Shown: piece by piece, positions 7,514 through 62,995 of the stretch | Layout of the letters: each line of letters opens with the position of its first letter | How positions within the stretch are numbered: the stretch's first letter is position 1 | Assembly: GCF_003670115.1 (NCBI RefSeq) | Contig: NZ_QQTY01000004.1 | Coordinates: 124,001 to 188,000, forward strand | Origin: Natronorubrum halophilum | Lineage (GTDB): Archaea > Halobacteriota > Halobacteria > Halobacteriales > Natrialbaceae | Direction: 5' to 3' | DNA length: 64,000 nt | Program-made: the position numbers and the translations under genes | Notes under the pieces: model-generated | Seen by the model: the letters and a program-made list of their open reading frames with translations, nothing else | Told to the model about the DNA's origin: nothing | Database searches by the model: none

Positions 7514-9700
7514 CTATATGTAGTCGATCGCCGGCGGCAGTTCGAGCTTCATGCCCTTGCGCTCGCGGATCTCCATGATCTTCTCGCGCTGGAGGGAGTC
7601 GGCCATGACCTCGAAGCCGGCGTTCTCGGTGTTCCAGGAGGCACGTCCCTCGGTCGCGGAGCGGATGTCGCTCGCGAACCCGATCATCTCGCCGACGGGC
7701 GCGATACCCTCGACGACCATGAGGTCTCCTTCCTGGTACATGTCGTCGACGCGGCCACGACGACCCTGGATCTCGCCGGAGGCGGCACCCATGTGGTCGT
7801 TCGGCACGTCGATACGAGCGTCCTGCATCGGCTCGAGCATCTTGATGCGACCGTCGATCAGCGCCTTGTGGACGGCGTTTCGGGTAGCGGGGATGACCTG
7901 TGCCGGGCCACGGTGGATGGTATCCTCGTGGAGTCGAGCGTCGTGCAGGCGGATGAGCGTCCCCTGAACCGGCTCGTTCGCCAGCGGGCCGTTGTCGAGG
8001 GCGTCCTCGAGCCCCTCGATGAACAGCTCCATCGTCTCGTTCAGGTGCTGGATACCCTTCGTCTGATCCAGCAGGATGTTCGAGCCGTGGATGTGCTCGA
8101 CGTCCTGGGAGTCGTCCTTGTCCATGCCGGCTTCTTGCAGGGCCTCACGGCGTTCCTGCTCGGGCATGTCCATCGTCGCCTCCCCTTTCTTGACCGTCTC
8201 GACGAGCTCGTCAGACAGCGGCTCGACGGAGATGTAAAAGCGGTTGTGGCGGTTCGGCGAGATTCCTTCGACCTGGTCGCTCTCTCGCTGGATGGCCTCG
8301 CGGTAGACGACGATCGGCTCACCGGTGTTGACTGGGATGCCCTGATTCTTCTCGATACGCTGAGTGATGACCTCGAGGTGGAGTTCACCCTGTCCGGAGA
8401 TCAGGTGCTCGCCGGTGTCCTCGTTGATCGTAATCTGGATCGTGGGGTCCTCCTTGGAGACCTGGCGCAGCGTCTCGATGAGCTTCGGCAGGTCGTCCAT
8501 CGTCTGGGCCTCCACGCTCTTGGTAATGACCGGCTCGGAGATGTGTTCGATCGTCTCGAACGGCGTCATCTCGGTGCTGGAGACGGTCGAACCGGCGATC
8601 GCGTCTTTGAGACCGGTCACGGCCGCGATGTTCCCGGCCGGTACCTGGTCGACTTCCTCGCGTTCGCCACCCATGTACACACCGACGGACTGGACGCGGT
8701 TTGTTCCCGCGGTCCCCGATACGTAGAGGTCCTGTCCCTTCTCGAGGGTGCCCGAGAAGACACGTCCACTGGCGACTTCGCCGGCGTGGGGATCCATCGC
8801 GATGTCGGTAACCATCAGGACGACTTCGCCGTCCTCGTCGACGAGTCGCATCGAATCCGCGAGTTCGGAGTCGGCGTCACCGCGCCAGATCCGTGGAATA
8901 CGACGGGGCTGGGCGTTGACCGGGTTCGGGAAGTGCTCACAGACCATGTCGAGCACGACGTCCGAAAGCGGCGTCCGCTCGTGGAGCTCCTGGCGCTGGT
9001 CGTTGCGCTCGAGGTCCATGATTTCGCCGAAGTCCATACCGGTTCGCTGCATCGACGGCATGGAGACACCCCACTTGTACAGGGCGGATCCGAAACCGAC
9101 GGTCCCCTCTTCGACGGAAACCGTCCAGTCGTCGATGTCGTCCATCTCCTCGGTCATGCCACGGATGAGTTCGTTGACGTCGTGGATGACCGACAGGAGT
9201 CGGTTCTGCATCTCTTCTGGTCCTTCCTGGAGTTCGGAGATCAGGCGGTCGACCTTGTTGATAAACAGGGTCGGCTTGACGCCTTCGCGAAGTGCCTGTC
9301 GCAGGACCGTCTCGGTCTGGGGCATGGCTCCTTCGACGGCGTCGACGACGACGAGCGCCCCGTCGACGGCGCGCATCGCTCGGGTGACGTCGCCACCGAA
9401 GTCGACGTGGCCCGGCGTGTCGATGAGGTTGATGAGGTGGTTGGTACCATCGTACTCGTGGGTCATCGAAACGTTCGCCGCGTCGATGGTGATCCCACGT
9501 TCCTGTTCGTCTTCCTCCGTATCCATCGCAAGCTGTTCACCGGCAGTCTCATCGGAGATCATGCCGGCACCGGCGAGGAGATTGTCAGAAAGGGTTGTTT
9601 TTCCGTGGTCGACGTGAGCGGCGATGGCGATGTTCCGGATGTTCTCCGGTTCGTCCATCAGCCGTTCACACTCTTGGACGATCTTCTTGCGTCGGCCCAT
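7514..9700 (-). CDS. fusA: Translation elongation factor EF-2
   Basis: 728 aa GTPase that drives translocation on the ribosome. Archaeal EF-2 signatures: G1 AHVDHGKTT near residue 25, DTPGHVDF (G3) and NKVDR (G4) in the G domain; then domain II and the C-terminal domains with [12 protein letters not shown], whose conserved His is the diphthamide target. The ATG at 9700 gives [16 protein letters not shown], the conserved archaeal N-terminus; the frame runs 38 codons further upstream without similarity. In other haloarchaea aef2 follows rps7 closely; here about 7 kb separates them because plus-strand genes are inserted. Confidence 0.98.
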
Positions 9701-9990
9701 ATATACCCCATTACCGCCAGCGGGGTCAAAAGGGTAGTGTTTCGTCTCCGCGCGAATCCGTCGAATTTCCCGGATTTCACGCCGGAATTTCAGGTTTGCG
9801 TGAGTGAATGCCACGCATCGGAGGCGAAACGGAAGATGACGAAACGATCAGTCCGCTCTCCTCGAGGTTTCGACTGTCGATCCGTGACACGGGTTTCATC
9901 TTCACTTCGGCTAACAACGGCGGGCACGAACTGCGACCGACGAAACTGGGCGTAAGAGACATACTCTCACAGAACCTGGTACTGGTACAC

Positions 9991-10746
9991 ATGGATATCC
10001 GAATCCAGGGCTCCGGTCCTACTTCTCCGTTCCTCAGCGCCCGGGATGTTTTCGAGACCGAACACGATATTTCGCTTCCGGTCCACGTTCATCTTCGGGA
10101 GGACCCCGACCAACGAACCTGGGCCGCCCACTACGACGACCGACACGTCCTGAACATCTCGAGACAGGCCGCCTCGAGCGCGATGGCTCGCGAACTCGCC
10201 CTCCACGAGTTCGCCCACATGGTCAGACACGAAGAAGAACACCCCTCACACACTCAATCGACGGAAGAGGTCCTCTATCTCGCATTGGCCGGCAAACGCG
10301 TCGAACGCCGAAAGCTCTCGCACTGTTACCAGATCGCGAACCACATGAAAGACATCTACGCCGACGACATCACGCTCGCGGTCGGCCCCGGAGAAAAACT
10401 CCTCTCCTTTCTTGAATCCAGCCTCGCGATGGCCGTCGCCGACCGTCCCATAACTCCCTCCCGACCGGGATTCGAACGCCTCTCCGCGAGTGCAGATCCG
10501 GAGATCACTGCTGTGAACGCGGCGTTCGCGCTCGCACTCGCCGAACGCCACGACCTCGTCGATGACGATCACCGATTGTACGACCTCGCACACGCGGCCG
10601 CGATGGACGCCCCGCAGGTGGACTTCCAGTGGTTCAAGCGCCGATTTCGAGAACTCGCCCGCGATCCCGACTCGAGTACCTACCGGCAGGTACTCGTGGA
10701 CGCGACCCGCGCGTACGTCGGCGGTGAGGGTCCAGCAGCGGAGTGA
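9991..10746 (+). CDS. Haloarchaeal conserved protein with HExxH-like motif (DUF5781-type)
   Basis: 251 aa, soluble and acidic. From memory it resembles a haloarchaeal family labelled DUF5781 that often neighbours EF-2. Residues ~72-86 contain LALHEFAHMVRHEEEHPSH: HEFAH is an HExxH zinc-protease motif and a further His follows at short distance. The helical C-terminal part has no known motif. A zinc-dependent peptidase or a structural zinc protein is possible; neither is established. The ATG at 9991 is chosen because the upstream open frame shows no conserved character. It is divergent from EF-2, sharing a ~290-nt promoter region. Confidence 0.75.
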   Translation: MDIRIQGSGPTSPFLSARDVFETEHDISLPVHVHLREDPDQRTWAAHYDDRHVLNISRQAASSAMARELALHEFAHMVRHEEEHPSHTQSTEEVLYLALAGKRVERRKLSHCYQIANHMKDIYADDITLAVGPGEKLLSFLESSLAMAVADRPITPSRPGFERLSASADPEITAVNAAFALALAERHDLVDDDHRLYDLAHAAAMDAPQVDFQWFKRRFRELARDPDSSTYRQVLVDATRAYVGGEGPAAE

Positions 10747-10948: not shown

Positions 10949-11665
10949 ATGTTTTCGCGTAATGACTGGAGTAGTGGGTCGAACGAGGAACGGTTCACCG
11001 AGGAGCTCTCCCAATTGAAACGTCGCGGGGCGAGCGTTCTCGTCGTCGGCTCCGTGCGAGCCACTCAGCGACGGGACGTCTGTCGACGGCTGTTGGGGGA
11101 AGCAACCGGTCAGCCGCGCCGACGCGTTCTGGCATCGACGACTGGCGACAGCCACGATATCTCCCACCTGCTCGATGGGAACGTCGATGCGGCGGAGTCG
11201 GTCAAACTCGTGAACTACGCGACCCAGGCTCGGAGCGCTACCGCGAGTGAAACCGGTTCAAAACGCTCCATACCGTTGGACGAAGTGTCGCCGGTCGAAA
11301 CCACGACTCTCGCCGACCTCGGCATCGCCATCTCGAGTGCCATCGAATCGTTCGAAACCAGTTCGGACAGGCTCGCACCCGCAGAACTCCGCGTCGGTAT
11401 CGACTCTCTGGTTCCACTGCTCGAGGAGTACGGTACCGAGCGCGTCTTCAAATTCGTTCACCTGACGAACGGTCGAGCTAGGGCCACCGACGGCATGATC
11501 CACTACCACCTCCCGCTGGACCGCGACTCGGATGTCGTTTCGGTACTGGCTCCGCTGTTCGACATTGTCATCGAACTTCGGGAGCAAAACGGCGTCTTTC
11601 AGGAACGCTGGTCCATCCACGACGGCGACCAGACCTCCGGCTGGGTCTCGATCAGCCAGCCGTAA
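10949..11665 (+). CDS. Degenerate RecA/KaiC-like protein (HTR-like, DUF7504-type)
   Basis: 238 aa. The strand ASVLVVGSVRATQRRD aligns where KaiC-like ATPases have a P loop, but no GK[S/T] remains, so ATP binding by a classical Walker A is unlikely. The central region (GIDSLVPLLEEYGTERVFKFVHLTNGRA) and the DGMIHYHLPLD segment are shared with the protein at 62276-62995, making the two paralogues. Related families in halophiles have been linked to signalling. The gene is host-like in GC and ends 85 nt before the first CHAT protease on the same strand, so a functional link is plausible but unproven. ATG at 10949 follows an in-frame TTG. Confidence 0.7.
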   Translation: MFSRNDWSSGSNEERFTEELSQLKRRGASVLVVGSVRATQRRDVCRRLLGEATGQPRRRVLASTTGDSHDISHLLDGNVDAAESVKLVNYATQARSATASETGSKRSIPLDEVSPVETTTLADLGIAISSAIESFETSSDRLAPAELRVGIDSLVPLLEEYGTERVFKFVHLTNGRARATDGMIHYHLPLDRDSDVVSVLAPLFDIVIELREQNGVFQERWSIHDGDQTSGWVSISQP

Positions 11666-11750
11666 CGACTATTGATTTCTCGAGCATCAGGTCTGGTATC
11701 TTAGCTGGCGCGTGGTCGCCTGCACCGATCTCTCGCACCCAGTCCATTCC

Positions 11751-13826
11751 ATGAAACCGAAATTCGAAGCAACTGAAGACGGTATCGAGATCATCGATCC
11801 GATCGAGCGCCGTCGATACCGACTGACGACGCATGAACCGGTTTCGCCCGAACCGGTAGATACGGATCGGATTCAGTTTCCAGTAGCGACAGCCGTCGAA
11901 ATCACGACAAAGATGATTACGTTACCAACAAACGAGACCGTCTATGTTCGTGATAAGGATGGGGTGATGATAGCGGAGGTCCGGCCTAATAAGCAAGTTT
12001 CTCTCCCTTGTGATGAATATACTCTCGACCTATCAGGTCCGCTGAAAGTGTATGCTCAGATTAGAAGCCCGGTATATATTTATTCAGACAGTGATAGGAC
12101 ATACATTACATTCGATAAATCGACACACACTATTCTTGGATTTCGATCGTATCATCGACGGCCAGCAGGAATGATCACCACAACTGAGGAACCAACTGAC
12201 GTAATGCAAGCAGTCTCAACATTTGGATCTGCATTAAAGTCTACTACAGTCGAACGCTCCTATCCAACCCATCAAGGCCATCCGCCAGCTATCAAACTTG
12301 GGCATGAGTTACACATACCTGATGAGTTCAAGGGGCTAGATACAGGGATACGAATCGAAGTACCACCAACACTAAGCAACATATTCGTTGTTACACCGCT
12401 CGCATACTATCTGGGTGCCAAAGTCGTTCCTGGTCCAGAGCCACAGCTTGTTACGAAGAGCGAGTTTACGTATAATCTCGAGGGAAAAGAAGATTTTGAG
12501 ACGACAGTAGAGCGTATTCTAAAACAAATATTCTTCCTCGATTGTATCGTTCGGACTGAGGGGGCGACACCACTTCCACTACATGAGGAACAAGTGGTTA
12601 AATCGAAACTCGATATCGATTTTAAATCGTTATATAACAAACCATTGGCCAGTCAAATAAGACATTATCTTTCTATCTCGTTCGATACAGTAGAGGAACA
12701 TCTGCCAGATTGGCGACTGGAGGTGAAACTTAGTCCAACACGAGAGATAATAGAATTTCTTCCATTTATTGCTAATCGTCTTGCGATGGTAACAGTTCAC
12801 AGTGGGAACGGAACTTCAAGATTGGACGTACAAAACCGGGCAGAAGCTATTGAAGGATTTACCAGACATGATCCTGAACATATTGATGGAACAAATCAGT
12901 GTGAAGACACAGCCTCTAATTGTCGAGTTCAAATTTCGGCTCCAACAATCAAGCAGTCTTGGAGTAGAGATGTATCTGCAAATATCACAAGTACAACGCC
13001 ACTTGCAGCGTTCTACAATGGTCTAGGTAGAATCCCAAGGGAAGGTGCCATAGAGATCACAGTCATATGTAATGATCAGAATATGAAGGAGGAGTTAACG
13101 GCAGTAAATAATGTGTATGGAAATCGTGAAGAACTATCATTTGATGTTTCGGTTCATTATGCAGTGACGAAAAAAGATCTTGAAGAGATTCTTTCTCAAG
13201 AAAGTGATTTCGTTCACTATATCGGTCATATTGATCAAGATGGTATGCAGTGTACTGACGGGAAATTGAACGCAGCATCCATTGAAACGGTTGGTGCAAA
13301 GGCATTTTTGCTTAACGCATGTGAGTCACATAAACAAGGGTTGCATTTGGTTGAAGCAGGAAGTTTAGGTGGGATAGTAACTCTTGGTGACATTGTGAAT
13401 AATGGTGCTATCCGTGTAGGAAGTATGATTGCTAAATTGTTGAATCAAGGTTTTCCGCTCTACGCTGCACTAGATTTAACCAAGAAGCAAAATATTACTG
13501 GGGAACAGTATCAAATTGTTGGAAATGGAATAACAACAATAGCACAGTCTAAGACTGGTGCACCTAATGTGTGCATAGTAGCACAGAAAAAAGAGGGAGT
13601 AACTATTAGAATGAAAACATATATGGCTGCAGGAACAGAGAAGGGAAGCTTATTTACACCCTATATAGAATCCGTCGAAAAATATTATATACACCCAGGA
13701 GTGACAGGAGAGATTCCAATTACATACACTCATTTGAAAGAGTTTTTTGATTTGAGGAAAATTCCAGTTATAACTAATGGATCTGTAGAATGGAGCGATA
13801 ATATCAACGCTAGCGATTTTTACTAA
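11751..13826 (+). CDS. CHAT-domain protease-like protein 1
   Basis: 691 aa. The C-terminal third holds a CHAT (caspase/separase-fold) domain: DFVHYIGH with candidate catalytic His493 and LNACES with Cys524, followed by GGIVTLGD. The first ~420 residues have no TPRs and no domain I recognise; they begin with a beta-rich stretch (IIDPIERRRYRL) and include FGSALKSTTVERSYPT, shared with the paralogue. The protein at 14590-16629 is homologous over its full length. The first ~150 nt are GC-rich like the host, then the gene becomes strongly AT-rich. CHAT proteases elsewhere act in programmed death and CRISPR-linked defence; a defence or stress role here is inference. Confidence 0.82.
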   Translation: MKPKFEATEDGIEIIDPIERRRYRLTTHEPVSPEPVDTDRIQFPVATAVEITTKMITLPTNETVYVRDKDGVMIAEVRPNKQVSLPCDEYTLDLSGPLKVYAQIRSPVYIYSDSDRTYITFDKSTHTILGFRSYHRRPAGMITTTEEPTDVMQAVSTFGSALKSTTVERSYPTHQGHPPAIKLGHELHIPDEFKGLDTGIRIEVPPTLSNIFVVTPLAYYLGAKVVPGPEPQLVTKSEFTYNLEGKEDFETTVERILKQIFFLDCIVRTEGATPLPLHEEQVVKSKLDIDFKSLYNKPLASQIRHYLSISFDTVEEHLPDWRLEVKLSPTREIIEFLPFIANRLAMVTVHSGNGTSRLDVQNRAEAIEGFTRHDPEHIDGTNQCEDTASNCRVQISAPTIKQSWSRDVSANITSTTPLAAFYNGLGRIPREGAIEITVICNDQNMKEELTAVNNVYGNREELSFDVSVHYAVTKKDLEEILSQESDFVHYIGHIDQDGMQCTDGKLNAASIETVGAKAFLLNACESHKQGLHLVEAGSLGGIVTLGDIVNNGAIRVGSMIAKLLNQGFPLYAALDLTKKQNITGEQYQIVGNGITTIAQSKTGAPNVCIVAQKKEGVTIRMKTYMAAGTEKGSLFTPYIESVEKYYIHPGVTGEIPITYTHLKEFFDLRKIPVITNGSVEWSDNINASDFY

Positions 13827-13952
13827 TTAGGTACCCGAATACGTGCCGTTATTCGCGAGAACAGTTCCAGTTTGTGATAGAGCTAACATAATTGTGAACA
13901 GAACGCCGATCATTCGTGGGTGCTTCTTCAGGTACTGGGTTAGGTCGTCCAT
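13827..13952 (-). CDS. 41-aa membrane miniprotein between the CHAT genes (DUF7503-like)
   Basis: ATG at 13952, stop adjoining the stop of the first CHAT gene. The product has a polar head (MDDLTQYLKKHPRM), one hydrophobic helix (IGVLFTIMLALSQTGTVLA) and a short polar tail NNGTYSGT. The HPRMIGVLFT...SQ-G pattern matches small haloarchaeal proteins I recall as DUF7503; that match is from memory. The helix could equally be a signal peptide cleaved after VLA, freeing an 8-residue tail. It is antisense and convergent to CHAT 1 and divergent from CHAT 2. Substrate or regulator of the proteases is a testable guess. Confidence 0.6.
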   Translation of the reverse strand: MDDLTQYLKKHPRMIGVLFTIMLALSQTGTVLANNGTYSGT

Positions 13953-14589
13953 AGTACATCAAAGACATAGTGAGGCATGGATATGAATTTATTTTATTAT
14001 ATCTTTTAATTAAATAATAGTATTATAACCGGAGTTAACTGTTCAAAAGGAGAGACAATCCTCTTCGAGCGGGGCAAGTTCAGTCAACAATCGGAAAAAG
14101 GCCCATCACTTCTTCGTAAGCCTTCTGCAAAAGAAGTCATTCGACCGTCGAATGGAGAAGTTCATCTAGAAATAGACTAACAAGAAGTTCGTAGCACTAT
14201 GACCAACTGAATAATTCGAAGGAATGTCGGTAGGAAGGACAAGAACCTGCGTGTCCGGAGCGTTCTGTCGAAGTGGATCAAAAATATACAGAAGTCAGGT
14301 GATCCGAGTTCCTAATCGAGAAGTGAATTGAAATAATACCCCTATTATTCTAGAGTTATTTAATTAAGATTAATTCTATAAATATGGGAGACAATTAGTA
14401 TTTCTCAGGAAGGTACTATCAAATGCAGTCAAAAGAAAATAAGGAGAGATACATATTCATGAATGACGTACGTTACAGGATAGCAACCGAAATATCTGAT
14501 AGAACCAGAACGTATATTTCATAGACACACCTTTAACTCTATAAGATAGGTGAATTTTCCAGTGGAGATTTTAACTAGACTCATTTAGT
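13953..14589. other. AT-rich spacer between miniprotein and CHAT 2
   Basis: About 640 nt. Both flanks are extremely AT-rich (14000-14020 and 14340-14390) and carry a perfect 12-bp inverted pair, TTAATTAAATAA at 14006-14017 and TTATTTAATTAA at 14356-14367. The 14040-14330 middle is closer to host GC and has no intact frame. A 33-codon frame at 14423-14524 (MQSKENKERY...) is present but has no clear coding character. The region must hold promoters for the miniprotein and for CHAT 2. Confidence 0.4.
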
Positions 14590-16629
14590 ATGAAACCGAA
14601 GTTTAAATCAGTTCAAGATGGGTTAGTAATTGTTGATCCGATTGAACGTCAGCATTTTCAAATCAAAACACAAACACCAGTTACACCGATACCCACTGAT
14701 ACTGATAAAATCCCATACCCGATGGATGCGGCAGTAAAGATTACAACAAGTGGATTTACCTTACCAATCGATAATGTGGTTTATGTTCGTAATCCAGACA
14801 AATCGCTAATCACTGAAATCTACCAGAATGAAAAGATAATTCTTGAGCGGGCAGAATATATCCTCGATATATCAGGCTCATTGAAGGTATATGTGAAGGT
14901 TAATAGTTCAGCTCGGATTCATATTAGCGTAGATCAGACAAAAATTTCTTTTGATGGTGTGACAGAATTGATTGTTAGTGCGCGATCACATCAAACACAT
15001 CCAACAGCGACAATTACGACAACACCTGAACCAATTAATATGATGCGGGCTGTTTCTATGTTCGGGTCAGCACTGAAATCAACAACGACTGAACGGTCAT
15101 ATCCGACGCTTCGTGGACATCCACCAAGTATTAAACTAGGTGATGAGCTGGAGATTCCAGAGGAGTTAACTCGTCCAAATACAGGTGTCCAAATTAAAAT
15201 ACCACCAACATATAGGCACATATTCATTGTTGCACCACTCGTGTATTACCTCGCAGCGGAGATCGTCCCTGGTTCAACACCACAACTCGTTACAGACACA
15301 GGATATGTATACGAATTCGGGGAGGAGGAAGTGTTTGAGTCAGTAGTTGAGAAAGCTTTAAAGCAAGTTTTTTTACTTGATTGTGTCGTGCAAACTGAGG
15401 GAAAGACGCCAACAAATTTGTATGAACGGAAGAAAATTAAACCCAGACTCAAGTTTGATATTGAAACTGTGTACGAACAGACGATGGCAGAACAGCTTGA
15501 AACCTATCTCGAAGTTCCGTTTACAACAATAGAACCACTACTTCCAAAGTGGTGGCTTGAGACACAACTCGAGCCGACTGCAGAGCATGTTGAATACCTC
15601 CCATTTGCTGCTAATGACTTCTCTGCAATCACGATTACCGAAGACAACCGTTCTCTCACGCACACACAGGTAGGTGCCAAAACAAACATGGTTGGTGAAT
15701 GCAGCGGGGGAGATAACCGGTTAAATAAAATATTTTCCAATAATATTTCGATAATTAACCAATATTGGAATGACGAAGATGGATCAGTAATTCCAAGTAC
15801 CAAACCGTTATCGGCATTCCATCACCGTGTTAATCAATCACCCCGTGAGGGTTCACTCGAAATTGAAGTTATTTGTAATGACGCAAACATGAGTGAAGAG
15901 CTTGTGAAGGTTCATGAAACATACGGTGATCGAGATGATCTTCCATTTGAGGTCACGATTCACCATGACCTTTCAAAAAACGATCTTAAACAGGTACTTA
16001 CTCGGGAAAGCGACTTTGTCCACTATATTGGCCATATCAATTCAGATGGTTTTCGATGCTCGGATGGAATGTTAGATGCTGCAACTGTCGAATCGGTTGG
16101 AACGAAGGCGTTCTTTCTTAATGCGTGTCAATCTTATGAACAGGGATTCAATCTTATCAAGGCAGGTGCTATCGGTGGTATTGTAACGCTTGCAGAGGTG
16201 AAAAACAGTGATGCAGTAGATGCAGGAGAAACTATTGCTCAACTACTAAACATTGGTTTTCCGCTTTACGCTACACTAGATGTTTTTCAAAAGAAAGGAG
16301 GAAGCAGTCAACAGTATCATATCCTCGGAGATGGAATGTTAACAATAGTACAATCTGACCAGCCATCTCCAGAGATTTGCACAATAATTCGAGGAAAAAA
16401 GGAAAACCGGATTAAAATTGAGACGTATATTTCACCAGAATGTATGCATGGGAGTTTATGTATGCCCTATGTTGACTCGATTAAGACATATCGCATAATA
16501 TCGGGAAAAATACAATCATTTCCTATAACAGATGCAGAAACTATAGAATTTTTCAATTCAGGGAAATTCCCGGTTTTACTCGATAACGAACTCCGATGGA
16601 GCAACGAAATCAAGACGCACGAGTTATAA
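14590..16629 (+). CDS. CHAT-domain protease-like protein 2
   Basis: 679 aa, collinear with the upstream CHAT protein from MKPKF to the end. The CHAT dyad is conserved: DFVHYIGH with His482 and LNACQS with Cys513, the same 31-residue spacing as in paralogue 1. Shared N-terminal landmarks are DPIERQHFQIKT, MFGSALKSTTTERSYPT and PQLVTDTGYVYEF. Codon use is AT-rich throughout, unlike the flanking ribosomal genes, which argues for horizontal origin. The gene ends 62 nt from the convergent rps7 stop. It could be a catalytic partner of CHAT 1, or a specificity variant created by duplication. No membrane segment is evident. Confidence 0.82.
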   Translation: MKPKFKSVQDGLVIVDPIERQHFQIKTQTPVTPIPTDTDKIPYPMDAAVKITTSGFTLPIDNVVYVRNPDKSLITEIYQNEKIILERAEYILDISGSLKVYVKVNSSARIHISVDQTKISFDGVTELIVSARSHQTHPTATITTTPEPINMMRAVSMFGSALKSTTTERSYPTLRGHPPSIKLGDELEIPEELTRPNTGVQIKIPPTYRHIFIVAPLVYYLAAEIVPGSTPQLVTDTGYVYEFGEEEVFESVVEKALKQVFLLDCVVQTEGKTPTNLYERKKIKPRLKFDIETVYEQTMAEQLETYLEVPFTTIEPLLPKWWLETQLEPTAEHVEYLPFAANDFSAITITEDNRSLTHTQVGAKTNMVGECSGGDNRLNKIFSNNISIINQYWNDEDGSVIPSTKPLSAFHHRVNQSPREGSLEIEVICNDANMSEELVKVHETYGDRDDLPFEVTIHHDLSKNDLKQVLTRESDFVHYIGHINSDGFRCSDGMLDAATVESVGTKAFFLNACQSYEQGFNLIKAGAIGGIVTLAEVKNSDAVDAGETIAQLLNIGFPLYATLDVFQKKGGSSQQYHILGDGMLTIVQSDQPSPEICTIIRGKKENRIKIETYISPECMHGSLCMPYVDSIKTYRIISGKIQSFPITDAETIEFFNSGKFPVLLDNELRWSNEIKTHEL

Positions 16630-16691: not shown

Positions 16692-17300
16692 TTAGCGGGC
16701 TGCTGCTGCGACGCGCTCTTTCTCTTCTTTCTGGCTGATTGCGTACGTCTGCACGTCGTAGTTAGATGCCCCGATAAGCTGACTGGCGATCGCTTCTTCG
16801 ACGGATGTCGCCGTCTTGAACGAAGCATTGTAGACGCCTTCGGCGAGGAACTTCAGGGCCTGGTCGACGCGACGCTGAGGAGCGACGTCGACTGCTTTGG
16901 GAACCGAAATACCACCGTATTTCAGGCGGACGGTCTCCTCACGCGGGGCGGCGTTTTCGACAGCGGTTACGAGCACCTGAATGGGGTTCTCGTCGGTGCG
17001 CTCGTGGATGAGTTCGAACGCCTCGCGGACGTGGTTGAGCGACTGCTGTTTCTTGCCCGTGTTCTCTTCGGTTTGCATCAAGCGGTTGATAAAGCGCTCG
17101 ACGATCGAGATCTGGGACTTCTGGAACTGCTTGCTGGCGTGACGCCCGGCGGTGTGAGCGACCGGCGTCACTGCAATGTAGCGTTCGGTGGAGGGATCGT
17201 TGTACGCGATCTCGTCGATCTCCCACGTGCCGAACAGTTTCGCGCCGACATCCGTGCCACCTGCTGGGGCGTCGGGGTCGGGTTGGTCTTCTGCAGCCAT
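16692..17300 (-). CDS. rps7: 30S ribosomal protein S7
   Basis: 202 aa, archaeal uS7. It nucleates assembly of the 3' domain of 16S rRNA and lines the mRNA exit/E site. Recognisable blocks are KLFGTWEIDEI, VERFINRLMQTEENTGKKQQ and PREETVRLKYGGISVPKAVD. The acidic N-terminal extension (AAEDQPDPDAPAGG) is typical of halophiles. The start at 17300 lies 2 nt after the stop of rps12, so the two are cotranscribed and probably translationally coupled. It is the last minus-strand gene of the rpo-rps block before the inserted plus-strand module. Confidence 0.97.
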   Translation of the reverse strand: MAAEDQPDPDAPAGGTDVGAKLFGTWEIDEIAYNDPSTERYIAVTPVAHTAGRHASKQFQKSQISIVERFINRLMQTEENTGKKQQSLNHVREAFELIHERTDENPIQVLVTAVENAAPREETVRLKYGGISVPKAVDVAPQRRVDQALKFLAEGVYNASFKTATSVEEAIASQLIGASNYDVQTYAISQKEEKERVAAAAR

Positions 17301-17302
17301 AG

Positions 17303-17731
17303 TTATCGCACCGGTTTCTCTGCGTTCCCGCGGACCAGTTCCTTCAGGGCGACACCGTTGACCTTGTCGACCTTGTAGTTGACACCGGAGAGGTCACCCA
17401 TCGCACGACCCTTCGCCCCACCGATTCCGGCGATGGTGACTTCGTCGTGCTCGTCGATGAAGCTGATTGCGCCGTCACCGGGACAGAACGCGGTGACCTG
17501 CTTGCCGTTTTTGATCAGCTGAACCCGGACGCACTTTCGAATTGCCGAGTTGGGCTGTTTCGCTTCGATGCCGACCTTTTCCAGTACGATACCTCGAGCC
17601 TGTGGAGCGCCCTCGAGCGGGTCGGACTTCTCGCGAAGTCCACGGGCGCGGCGCGCGTAGTCAGAGTCGGACCACCGCTGGTTCTGGCGGTCCTTTTTGA
17701 GCTTACGCGCGGCGTACTTGCCGTTTGCCAT
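17303..17731 (-). CDS. rps12: 30S ribosomal protein S12
   Basis: 142 aa, archaeal uS12, part of the decoding centre. The conserved [19 protein letters not shown] and [20 protein letters not shown] blocks are intact. The N-terminus [20 protein letters not shown] is the normal archaeal form, fixing the start at 17731. The reading frame stays open for 204 codons upstream, all the way back to the nusA stop, and includes a Cys-rich stretch (see 17882-18190); those residues are not part of S12. It is followed directly by rps7. Confidence 0.97.
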
Positions 17732-17881
17732 GGGCGTCGCTATCCGTCGAAGCCACTTAAGCGACCCGTTTCGAACCGACGTTACGGCTCGAGAGCGTTC
17801 GATCGGGGTCGATGAAGGAATCTGAGGGCGTTTCGACACCGAGTAACGGCTCTCGGGCAGTCCGCGACGGATTCGACGCGA

Positions 17882-18190
17882 GATCTCCCACTCCTCACAA
17901 CAACCGACACTGATGGGAGGACAGGCGGTCAGAAGACATGCGATACAACCGGGAACACAGCAGATATAATTGGTCGCACAGACTCTGCACCCTCCGGTTG
18001 TACACGCGAGAGTAATATCGACGCTGTCGTCCACGTCGTCGACTTCCTCCCCACTCAGCGGATGACAGGGATCGCGATCCAGGTCGGCGGTCCCTACGGA
18101 CGTGGTCGTTTGCGTACCGTTGATACTCCCATCCTCGGCTCGTAAATTCATCCCTTCGAAATCCCTTCCGCCTTCGATCCTCCAGAGTTT
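17882..18190 (-). pseudogene. Cys-rich halocin-like fragment (relic) between nusA and rps12
   Basis: An open stretch with protein-like character: [20 protein letters not shown], then an acidic linker, then a core with ten cysteines in 36 residues (17897-18004: [20 protein letters not shown] ... [11 protein letters not shown] ... CC). The hydrophobic Cys-rich core after an acidic propeptide recalls the C-terminal bacteriocin part of halocin C8 precursors; similarity is of type, not of clear alignment. There is no own stop codon before rps12 and no signal peptide, so it is probably a truncated remnant. A functional translation product cannot be excluded. Confidence 0.33.
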
Positions 18191-62275: not shown

Positions 62276-62995
62276 ATGGAGCCCAGAATTCCCGCCGAGA
62301 TCGAGCCACCGGCGAACGTATTGCTCGTCGACGCGAACGCTCGTGAGCCAAACGCGTGTACCGAACGCTGCTACGAGACCGACTCGACGGCAGCGCTCAC
62401 GGTCAGCTTCGTGGATGACCAGCTGGAACAGCCGGATCCGGACGAGGTAGACGGCAGGGTCGGGCTGTTGACGATCGGGAATGACCTGTTGGACGAACGC
62501 GCGGACTCGGACCCCGATTTCGCCGACTCGGTCGTCGTCGATTCGGTCTGTGATCCGACCGACCTCTCCGAAATCGGGATTGCCGTCAGCCGATTTTGCG
62601 AACACTGGTTCGACGACGGCGAGCAGATTTCAGTCTGTTTCGAATCGCTCGACGCCCTCATTCGGTACAGATCGCCGAAAGAGGTCTTCCAGTTCACCCG
62701 CATCTTGCTCGGCCGACTCGAGAGCGTCGACGCCGACGCCCACGTTCACTTCGATCCGTCGCGCCACGAAGACCGCCTCGTCTCGGCGTTCGGATCGGTC
62801 TTCGATGCCGTCATCGTCGACGAGAACGCCGATCGATCGCTTCCGGAAGCCACCGACGAGGAGGTCGAAGAACTGCTCGCGGCGTGGAGCGAGGCGTCCG
62901 AAAACGGGCTCGGGCTCGAGGCGGATCCGTCGACCGAGGCGACCGACGAAGAAATCGCCCGAATACTCGGGAATGAGTGCAATACGACGCGTTGA
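62276..62995 (+). CDS. Degenerate RecA/KaiC-like protein, second copy (DUF7504-type)
   Basis: 239 aa, paralogous to the protein at 10949-11665: CFESLDALIRYRSPKEVFQF aligns with GIDSLVPLLEEYGTERVFKF, and ADAHVHFDPSRHEDRLVSAF with GMIHYHLPLDRDSDVVSVL. The P-loop position reads LLVDANAREPNACTER, lacking GK[S/T]. The C-terminal ~45 residues are acidic (ATDEEVEELLAAW). No neighbour here suggests a role. The ATG at 62276 is preferred over an upstream GTG at 62237. Confidence 0.7.
   Translation: MEPRIPAEIEPPANVLLVDANAREPNACTERCYETDSTAALTVSFVDDQLEQPDPDEVDGRVGLLTIGNDLLDERADSDPDFADSVVVDSVCDPTDLSEIGIAVSRFCEHWFDDGEQISVCFESLDALIRYRSPKEVFQFTRILLGRLESVDADAHVHFDPSRHEDRLVSAFGSVFDAVIVDENADRSLPEATDEEVEELLAAWSEASENGLGLEADPSTEATDEEIARILGNECNTTR

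Follow-up and report, generated by a model that had tools for sequence, protein, structure and literature searches.

The locus described here lies in a window of 64,000 nucleotides (the whole stretch of DNA that was analysed) from the haloarchaeon Natronorubrum halophilum (RefSeq assembly GCF_003670115.1, contig NZ_QQTY01000004.1, positions 124,001 to 188,000). It carries, in order, a gene for a DUF7504 protein, a gene for a CHAT protease (CHAT1), a convergent gene for a 41-residue DUF7503 miniprotein, the remnants of a response-regulator gene of the HalX type, and a second CHAT gene (CHAT2). An earlier note on this DNA had described the two CHAT paralogues as intact, with His/Cys dyads of equal spacing, the small protein between them on the opposite strand and a degenerate RecA/KaiC-like protein upstream. 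All of this was borne out, the residue numbers of the dyads being correct when CHAT1 is translated from MKPKF (its longest open reading frame begins at 11712). As shown below, a single CHAT with a single miniprotein makes up the unit, to which DUF7504 and a HalX regulator are often added.

The pairing of the two genes is strict. In 45 genomes checked row by row, all 48 copies of DUF7503 are convergent to a CHAT gene and lie at most about 360 bp behind it, so that the recurrent association anticipated by the earlier note holds. The CHAT family is present in 271 of 292 haloarchaeal genomes (93%) and in 68 of 77 genera; DUF7503 occurs in 250 of the 292, each of which also has CHAT, and is missing from all 21 genomes that lack CHAT. 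Since these CHAT-less genomes are spread over about a dozen genera, one single loss does not account for the pattern, although the genomes are not independent. Among the 127 linked CHAT genes in the loci that were fetched, the stop codons of the two genes are mostly -6 to +8 bp apart, and in the window 0 bp separate them. One exception is a Natronomonas contig (L084/L155): its miniprotein gene has the same orientation as CHAT and follows about 1.4 kb downstream. The DUF7503 hidden Markov model found no match beside six diverged CHATs (L091, L096, L181, L185, L194 and L195), yet a diverged convergent miniprotein of the [HN]P[RKQ]-hydrophobic type sits in the same place, and five of these six miniproteins end exactly in Gly-Pro. 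For comparison, Gly-Pro-ended hydrophobic segments are present in 2.4% of random 1.24-kb regions.

Because the stop codons often abut or overlap, the arrangement could be a neighbourhood without shared function, in which a compact convergent pair is kept by chance and by selection against breaking overlapping gene ends. However, families retain the pair although its genomic location differs between them, the diverged miniproteins occupy the same place, and DUF7503 is absent from every CHAT-less genome; we give this account very little credence. The dependence is also one-sided: CHAT keeps its dyad where the miniprotein has been lost, as in most Haloplanus genomes, while the miniprotein never outlives CHAT. 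This fits a substrate or effector of the protease, and it disfavours the miniprotein as an essential antitoxin of CHAT. Behind the second-copy CHATs of Halococcus (L081, L146 and L161), whose dyad is intact, there is a frame ending in ACTYSGP that has no HPR-helix part, apparently a decayed miniprotein.

Next we examined the protease. By sequence, CHAT1 reaches 12 bits against the Pfam CHAT profile, under the cut-off of 24, CHAT2 has no Pfam match, and a search of the Protein Data Bank (PDB) sequences gave no meaningful relative. The AlphaFold model of CHAT1 (58-sequence alignment; predicted local distance difference test, pLDDT, 87.5; predicted template modelling score, pTM, 0.88) was compared with known structures (Foldseek) and matches CHAT, separase and gingipain, with VIA Z up to 19.3. 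The best match, SAVED-CHAT, covers residues ~428-600 (170 residues, Z 19.3), and over 320-600 the model also matches gingipains, separase, DdvA and Craspase, at Z 12-19 (12-14 for Craspase, 14-19 for separase and the gingipains). Since the matches begin at residue ~320, the block that precedes the active domain resembles the paired-subdomain layout of separase and the gingipains. Structure prediction confirmed a caspase-hemoglobinase fold for the modelled C-terminal domain of CHAT1. In the same model the N-terminal 132 residues are mainly beta, and within the N-terminal 318 residues conservation is highest at ~150-180. Few rows of the fold search cover residues 1-318, which were not folded alone, so the lack of a match is no evidence for a new fold.

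The putative catalytic residues, His493/Cys524 in CHAT1 and His482/Cys513 in CHAT2, are 31 residues apart in both proteins. The dyad is invariant in 58 of 58 aligned CHATs and is kept in 170 of 175 in a larger set, including all 120 miniprotein-linked copies; it is not routinely lost. The five losses are confined to one genome (G043), in tandem copies at two loci (three at L189, two at L192) where both catalytic residues are gone and no adjoining miniprotein was found.

The miniprotein of the window matches Pfam PF24335 with 73.5 bits (cut-off 27, E 1e-20). It consists of a basic HPR motif, a hydrophobic stretch, A-x-A and a short tail that ends in GT, where most relatives have GP. Over 114 distinct sequences the constant motif is Y/F-L-x-x-H/N-P-R/K-M, followed by a 20-residue hydrophobic stretch carrying L-F-T and S-Q-A-G, then by A/V-x-A/G and about 8 tail residues, which are mostly neutral. 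The proline is found in 114 of 114, the R/K in 111 and the terminal GP in 92. Column counts show the features of a Sec signal peptide, namely a basic n-region, a hydrophobic core and small residues at -3/-1, so that from its sequence the miniprotein would fit either an N-in single-pass helix or a signal peptide. In the latter case it would be a precursor from which signal peptidase frees a short, neutral, Gly-Pro-ended peptide, an extracellular signal or self marker, with CHAT as the receiver or response enzyme. The small residues precede the tail in essentially all 114 sequences, and the tail is variable (7-10 residues), nearly uncharged and usually GP-ended, as such a peptide might be. But conservation is higher in the leader than in the tail, the helix might simply anchor the protein in the membrane, and neither a receptor nor an importer is linked to the locus, which makes a secreted peptide quite unlikely in our view. 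The GP end also recalls the arrest peptides SecM and TnaC and raised the idea of a ribosome-arrest leader; however, there is no downstream gene in cis for it to control.

Table 1. Features of the CHAT locus and its flanks, with positions counted from the first letter of the window (aa, amino acids).
Feature	Position	Strand	Basis or remark
Left flank, conserved: EF-2 gene (-) and DUF5781 gene (+)	7514-10746		Pfam; synteny in Natrialbaceae loci
DUF7504 protein, 238 aa	10949-11665	+	Upstream partner of CHAT; Pfam PF24336, AlphaFold
CHAT1, predicted caspase-fold protease, 691 aa from MKPKF	11751-13826	+	Miniprotein-linked copy
CHAT1 His493 codon, putative catalytic	13227-13229	+	Alignment conservation
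CHAT1 Cys524 codon, putative catalytic	13320-13322	+	Alignment conservation
DUF7503 miniprotein, 41 aa	13827-13952	-	Pfam PF24335, conservation, pairing with CHAT
AT-rich gap with remnants of HalX-type response-regulator gene	13953-14589	-	Remnants in two reading frames; DNA similarity to intact gene
CHAT2, tandem duplicate, 679 aa	14590-16629	+	Dyad His482/Cys513; without miniprotein of its own
CHAT2 His482 codon, putative catalytic	16033-16035	+	Alignment
CHAT2 Cys513 codon, putative catalytic	16126-16128	+	Alignment
Right flank, conserved: rps7 and rps12 genes	16692-18151	-	Pfam; synteny

The DUF7504 protein of the window matches PF24336 with 202.7 bits (cut-off 27, E 8.7e-60), and its AlphaFold model (pLDDT 84.8) matches KaiC at Z 17.0. 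In place of the Walker A motif G-x4-GK-[ST] it has VLVVGSVRATQRR, and no Walker A P-loop was seen in 27 aligned DUF7504 sequences; judged by the model, the protein is a degenerate KaiC/RecA-like fold without Walker A. At the EF-2/rps7 site of Natrialbaceae the DUF7504 gene stands before CHAT; of the 97 loci elsewhere, 50 have it nearby, in most cases just upstream in the same orientation, so the RecA-like gene is a recurrent partner too. A further DUF7504 match lies in the window at 62312-62815 on the + strand (G000:C4:186312-186815), one of five DUF7504 in the genome. On a Haladaptatus plasmid (L201), a protein with a HalOD1 output domain is annotated directly upstream of CHAT, in the usual place of DUF7504.

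In 38 of 132 loci a HalX response regulator is encoded ahead of the miniprotein, in the same orientation; those of Natrialbaceae lie at the EF-2/rps7 site, those of Haloferacaceae at other sites. The presence of this partner at different sites in two families indicates that the association is more than local synteny. The HalX gene of the window has decayed to remnants readable in two frames, and the DNA of the gap is similar to an intact HalX-type gene in three relatives (L042, L045 and L049), where the gene carries HalX and receiver domains; Haloferax prahovense has the complete four-gene module. An arrangement of this kind would also suit a miniprotein that is not cut at all and serves as a membrane anchor or inhibitor (an adaptor), recruiting CHAT to the membrane or holding it inactive there, with the true substrate elsewhere. 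Separate convergent transcription would let a regulator such as HalX set the dose of the partner, the strong conservation of the helix and of the HPR face agrees with a binding surface, and the strict pairing is as expected. An essential inhibitor is hard to reconcile with the lineages that lack the miniprotein and retain an intact CHAT dyad. We regard an anchor or inhibitor as a serious but rather unlikely alternative.

The flanking genes, the decayed HalX gene and the low guanine-plus-cytosine (GC) content of the region (38-44%, against 60-65% in the surrounding DNA) were missing from the earlier note. The order EF-2, DUF5781, DUF7504, CHAT, miniprotein, rps7 is constant across the Natrialbaceae loci examined, and in many species the CHAT genes at the EF-2/rps7 site have a low GC content. 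These two observations speak against a mobile island or recent acquisition as the main account. DUF5781 (9808-10746 in the window), the constant Natrialbaceae neighbour between EF-2 and the CHAT module, shows weak M78/IrrE-like similarity.

CHAT2 is 45% identical to CHAT1. In the tree, the CHAT2 copies group together as a single clade within Natrialbaceae (20 rows; Shimodaira-Hasegawa-like approximate likelihood ratio test, SH-aLRT, 99), by which CHAT2 is a Natrialbaceae-specific duplicate that goes back to one duplication. The proposal that a tandem protease pair is the module falls with this result, since the second copy is restricted to Natrialbaceae. CHAT1 itself evolves fast: in three genera its mean identity is 54-61% as against 94-96% for EF-2 (54% and 94% in the genus of the window), and its third-position GC ranges over 0.33-0.78, that of EF-2 over 0.78-0.91. 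For CHAT1, the topology given by the flanking genes is rejected, with a log-likelihood difference of 429 (FastTree, with an approximately unbiased, AU, test of few replicates). This conflict suggests allele exchange at a fixed site, and together with the fast evolution it fits a role in conflict. It could even be that the caspase-fold protease and a diversifying, usually Gly-Pro-ended miniprotein, in the membrane or secreted, make up one exchangeable cassette for lineage-wide signalling or self-recognition, set by the KaiC-like pseudo-ATPase and the HalX regulator. We think this unlikely, though worth stating; no description of such a protease-peptide circuit was found in the literature searched.

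A single-protein query of the genome contigs gave no CHAT match, and an alignment query found the family. Outside the class Halobacteria, 295 genomes drawn from the whole phylum yielded relatives in only four, all members of one family. Judged by eye, the dyad is intact in three of these, and neither miniprotein nor DUF7504 was found beside them; these CHAT-core relatives (L207-L210, of which L207 is the one without dyad) adjoin a small conserved protein and an acetyltransferase-like gene. The genome of the window has a third, distant CHAT paralogue (G000:C2:1008399-1010465; L039), about 30% identical and with an NACGSYY motif, which represents a second haloarchaeal clade; the diverged convergent miniproteins of L181, L185, L194 and L195 belong to CHATs of that clade. 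Plasmid records mostly label CHAT as hypothetical, single records as CHAT domain-containing or caspase family protein, and searches of the literature for DUF7503, DUF7504 and haloarchaeal CHAT found nothing relevant. No CHAT relative was found in the phage collection and none was confirmed in IMG/VR, and none of the four proteins matched a PADLOC-DB model, even with E values up to 1 allowed; these results speak against a defence island. Of what had been put forward as a candidate new defence or death module, the caspase fold, the dyad and the linkage are supported. The module is near-universal and in Natrialbaceae occupies a fixed locus and not a defence island, without PADLOC match or relative in the viral collections searched; it may or may not act as a toxin or in cell death.

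Among known systems, SAVED-CHAT of the type III CRISPR (clustered regularly interspaced short palindromic repeats) systems (PDB 8tl0) shares the catalytic CHAT domain; however, no SAVED (cyclic oligoadenylate) domain was identified in the haloarchaeal CHAT by sequence search. CRISPR genes were absent from the recurrent gene clusters around CHAT, no search aimed at CRISPR having been made. Craspase, in which the tetratricopeptide-repeat (TPR) CHAT protease Csx29 acts with its substrate Csx30, is similar in the CHAT protease, the separase-like core and the dedicated partner gene adjoining, but the haloarchaeal partner is a 41-residue membrane-type miniprotein and not Csx30. Moreover, gRAMP (Cas7-11) is absent among the recurrent neighbours of CHAT loci, and Pfam finds no TPR region in CHAT1 or CHAT2, the N-terminal fold not having been searched on its own. 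Separase and the gingipains have a similar paired-subdomain layout and differ in the N-terminal region. Type I toxin-antitoxin systems encode hydrophobic peptides, which resemble the miniprotein as single helices of about 40 residues, but the latter is strictly linked with a protease gene, and its conservation spans an entire archaeal class. Bacterial gasdermins are partners activated by CHAT or caspase-like proteases. Their modules (mentioned in PMC9729208) likewise join a protease to a neighbouring gene for a membrane-active partner; the haloarchaeal partner differs in its length, in being convergently encoded and in not being a gasdermin.

The reading that we prefer, tentatively and at somewhat less than an even chance, is that of a haloarchaeal module of a protease with a dedicated miniprotein, the latter being the substrate or effector of a regulated CHAT in stress or conflict. 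CHAT would be a cytosolic cysteine protease kept inactive by its N-terminal region, perhaps with the help of DUF7504, and the miniprotein its dedicated substrate or a downstream effector at the membrane. The likeliest cut would be at the conserved [HN]-P-[RK] motif, at the cytosolic edge of the hydrophobic stretch, because the nearest folds include the Arg/Lys-cutting gingipains and the Arg-cutting separase. Cleavage might then alter the membrane state of the miniprotein or lead to export of its short C-terminal tail, as a response to stress or conflict, and HalX and DUF7504 could set the timing of production or activity of the parts. The miniprotein is favoured as the substrate because CHAT substrates are commonly encoded near their protease (PMC9729208), because it depends on CHAT and not the reverse, and because a basic residue after an invariant proline at the membrane edge goes with Arg/Lys-cutting fold relatives.

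Several observations weigh against a cleaved miniprotein in a stress or conflict module. At the position proposed to supply an acidic residue to the S1 pocket, only 101 of the 120 CHATs linked to a miniprotein have D/E, and this position was equated with separase D2151 by eye. The HPR motif may be no more than the usual positive-inside flank of a membrane segment, and if the N terminus is inside, the terminal GP lies outside the cell, beyond the reach of a cytosolic protease. Near-universality and a fixed locus would be unusual for a toxin or defence system. Finally, each of the 45 genomes has DUF7504, the CHAT-less ones included, and has it in several copies, so that DUF7504 is linked to CHAT only in part.

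Haloarchaea have a caspase-like activity that was linked to stress and for which no gene was found: extracts of Haloferax volcanii show strong zVAD-sensitive activity, and the authors called for identification of the protein (PMC3615174). In all 14 Haloferax genomes sampled there is exactly one CHAT gene, DUF7503 and DUF7504 are both present in H. volcanii, and we infer that this species carries a CHAT gene too. CHAT might accordingly be a housekeeping protease and the source of this orphan activity, with the miniprotein a minor accessory; the high basal activity (PMC3615174) and the presence of the family in nearly all haloarchaeal genomes would agree with this. However, caspase-like activity has also been reported in Methanosarcina and Pyrococcus (PMC3615174), outside the range in which CHAT was found, and for that reason we see only a slight chance that CHAT is the H. 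volcanii enzyme. Nor do the nearest folds, which include Arg/Lys cutters and not Asp cutters only, or the evolution of CHAT, far faster than that of its neighbours, suit a housekeeping protease, and we hold that account to be very unlikely.

The results name a caspase-fold gene in most haloarchaea, a group with a measured caspase-like activity but no gene for it, and they give the protease a candidate dedicated partner small enough for annotation to miss. If the miniprotein is the substrate, it would be the smallest CHAT effector known to us, and CHAT proteolysis, known from CRISPR and gasdermin settings, would reach into the core physiology of archaea.

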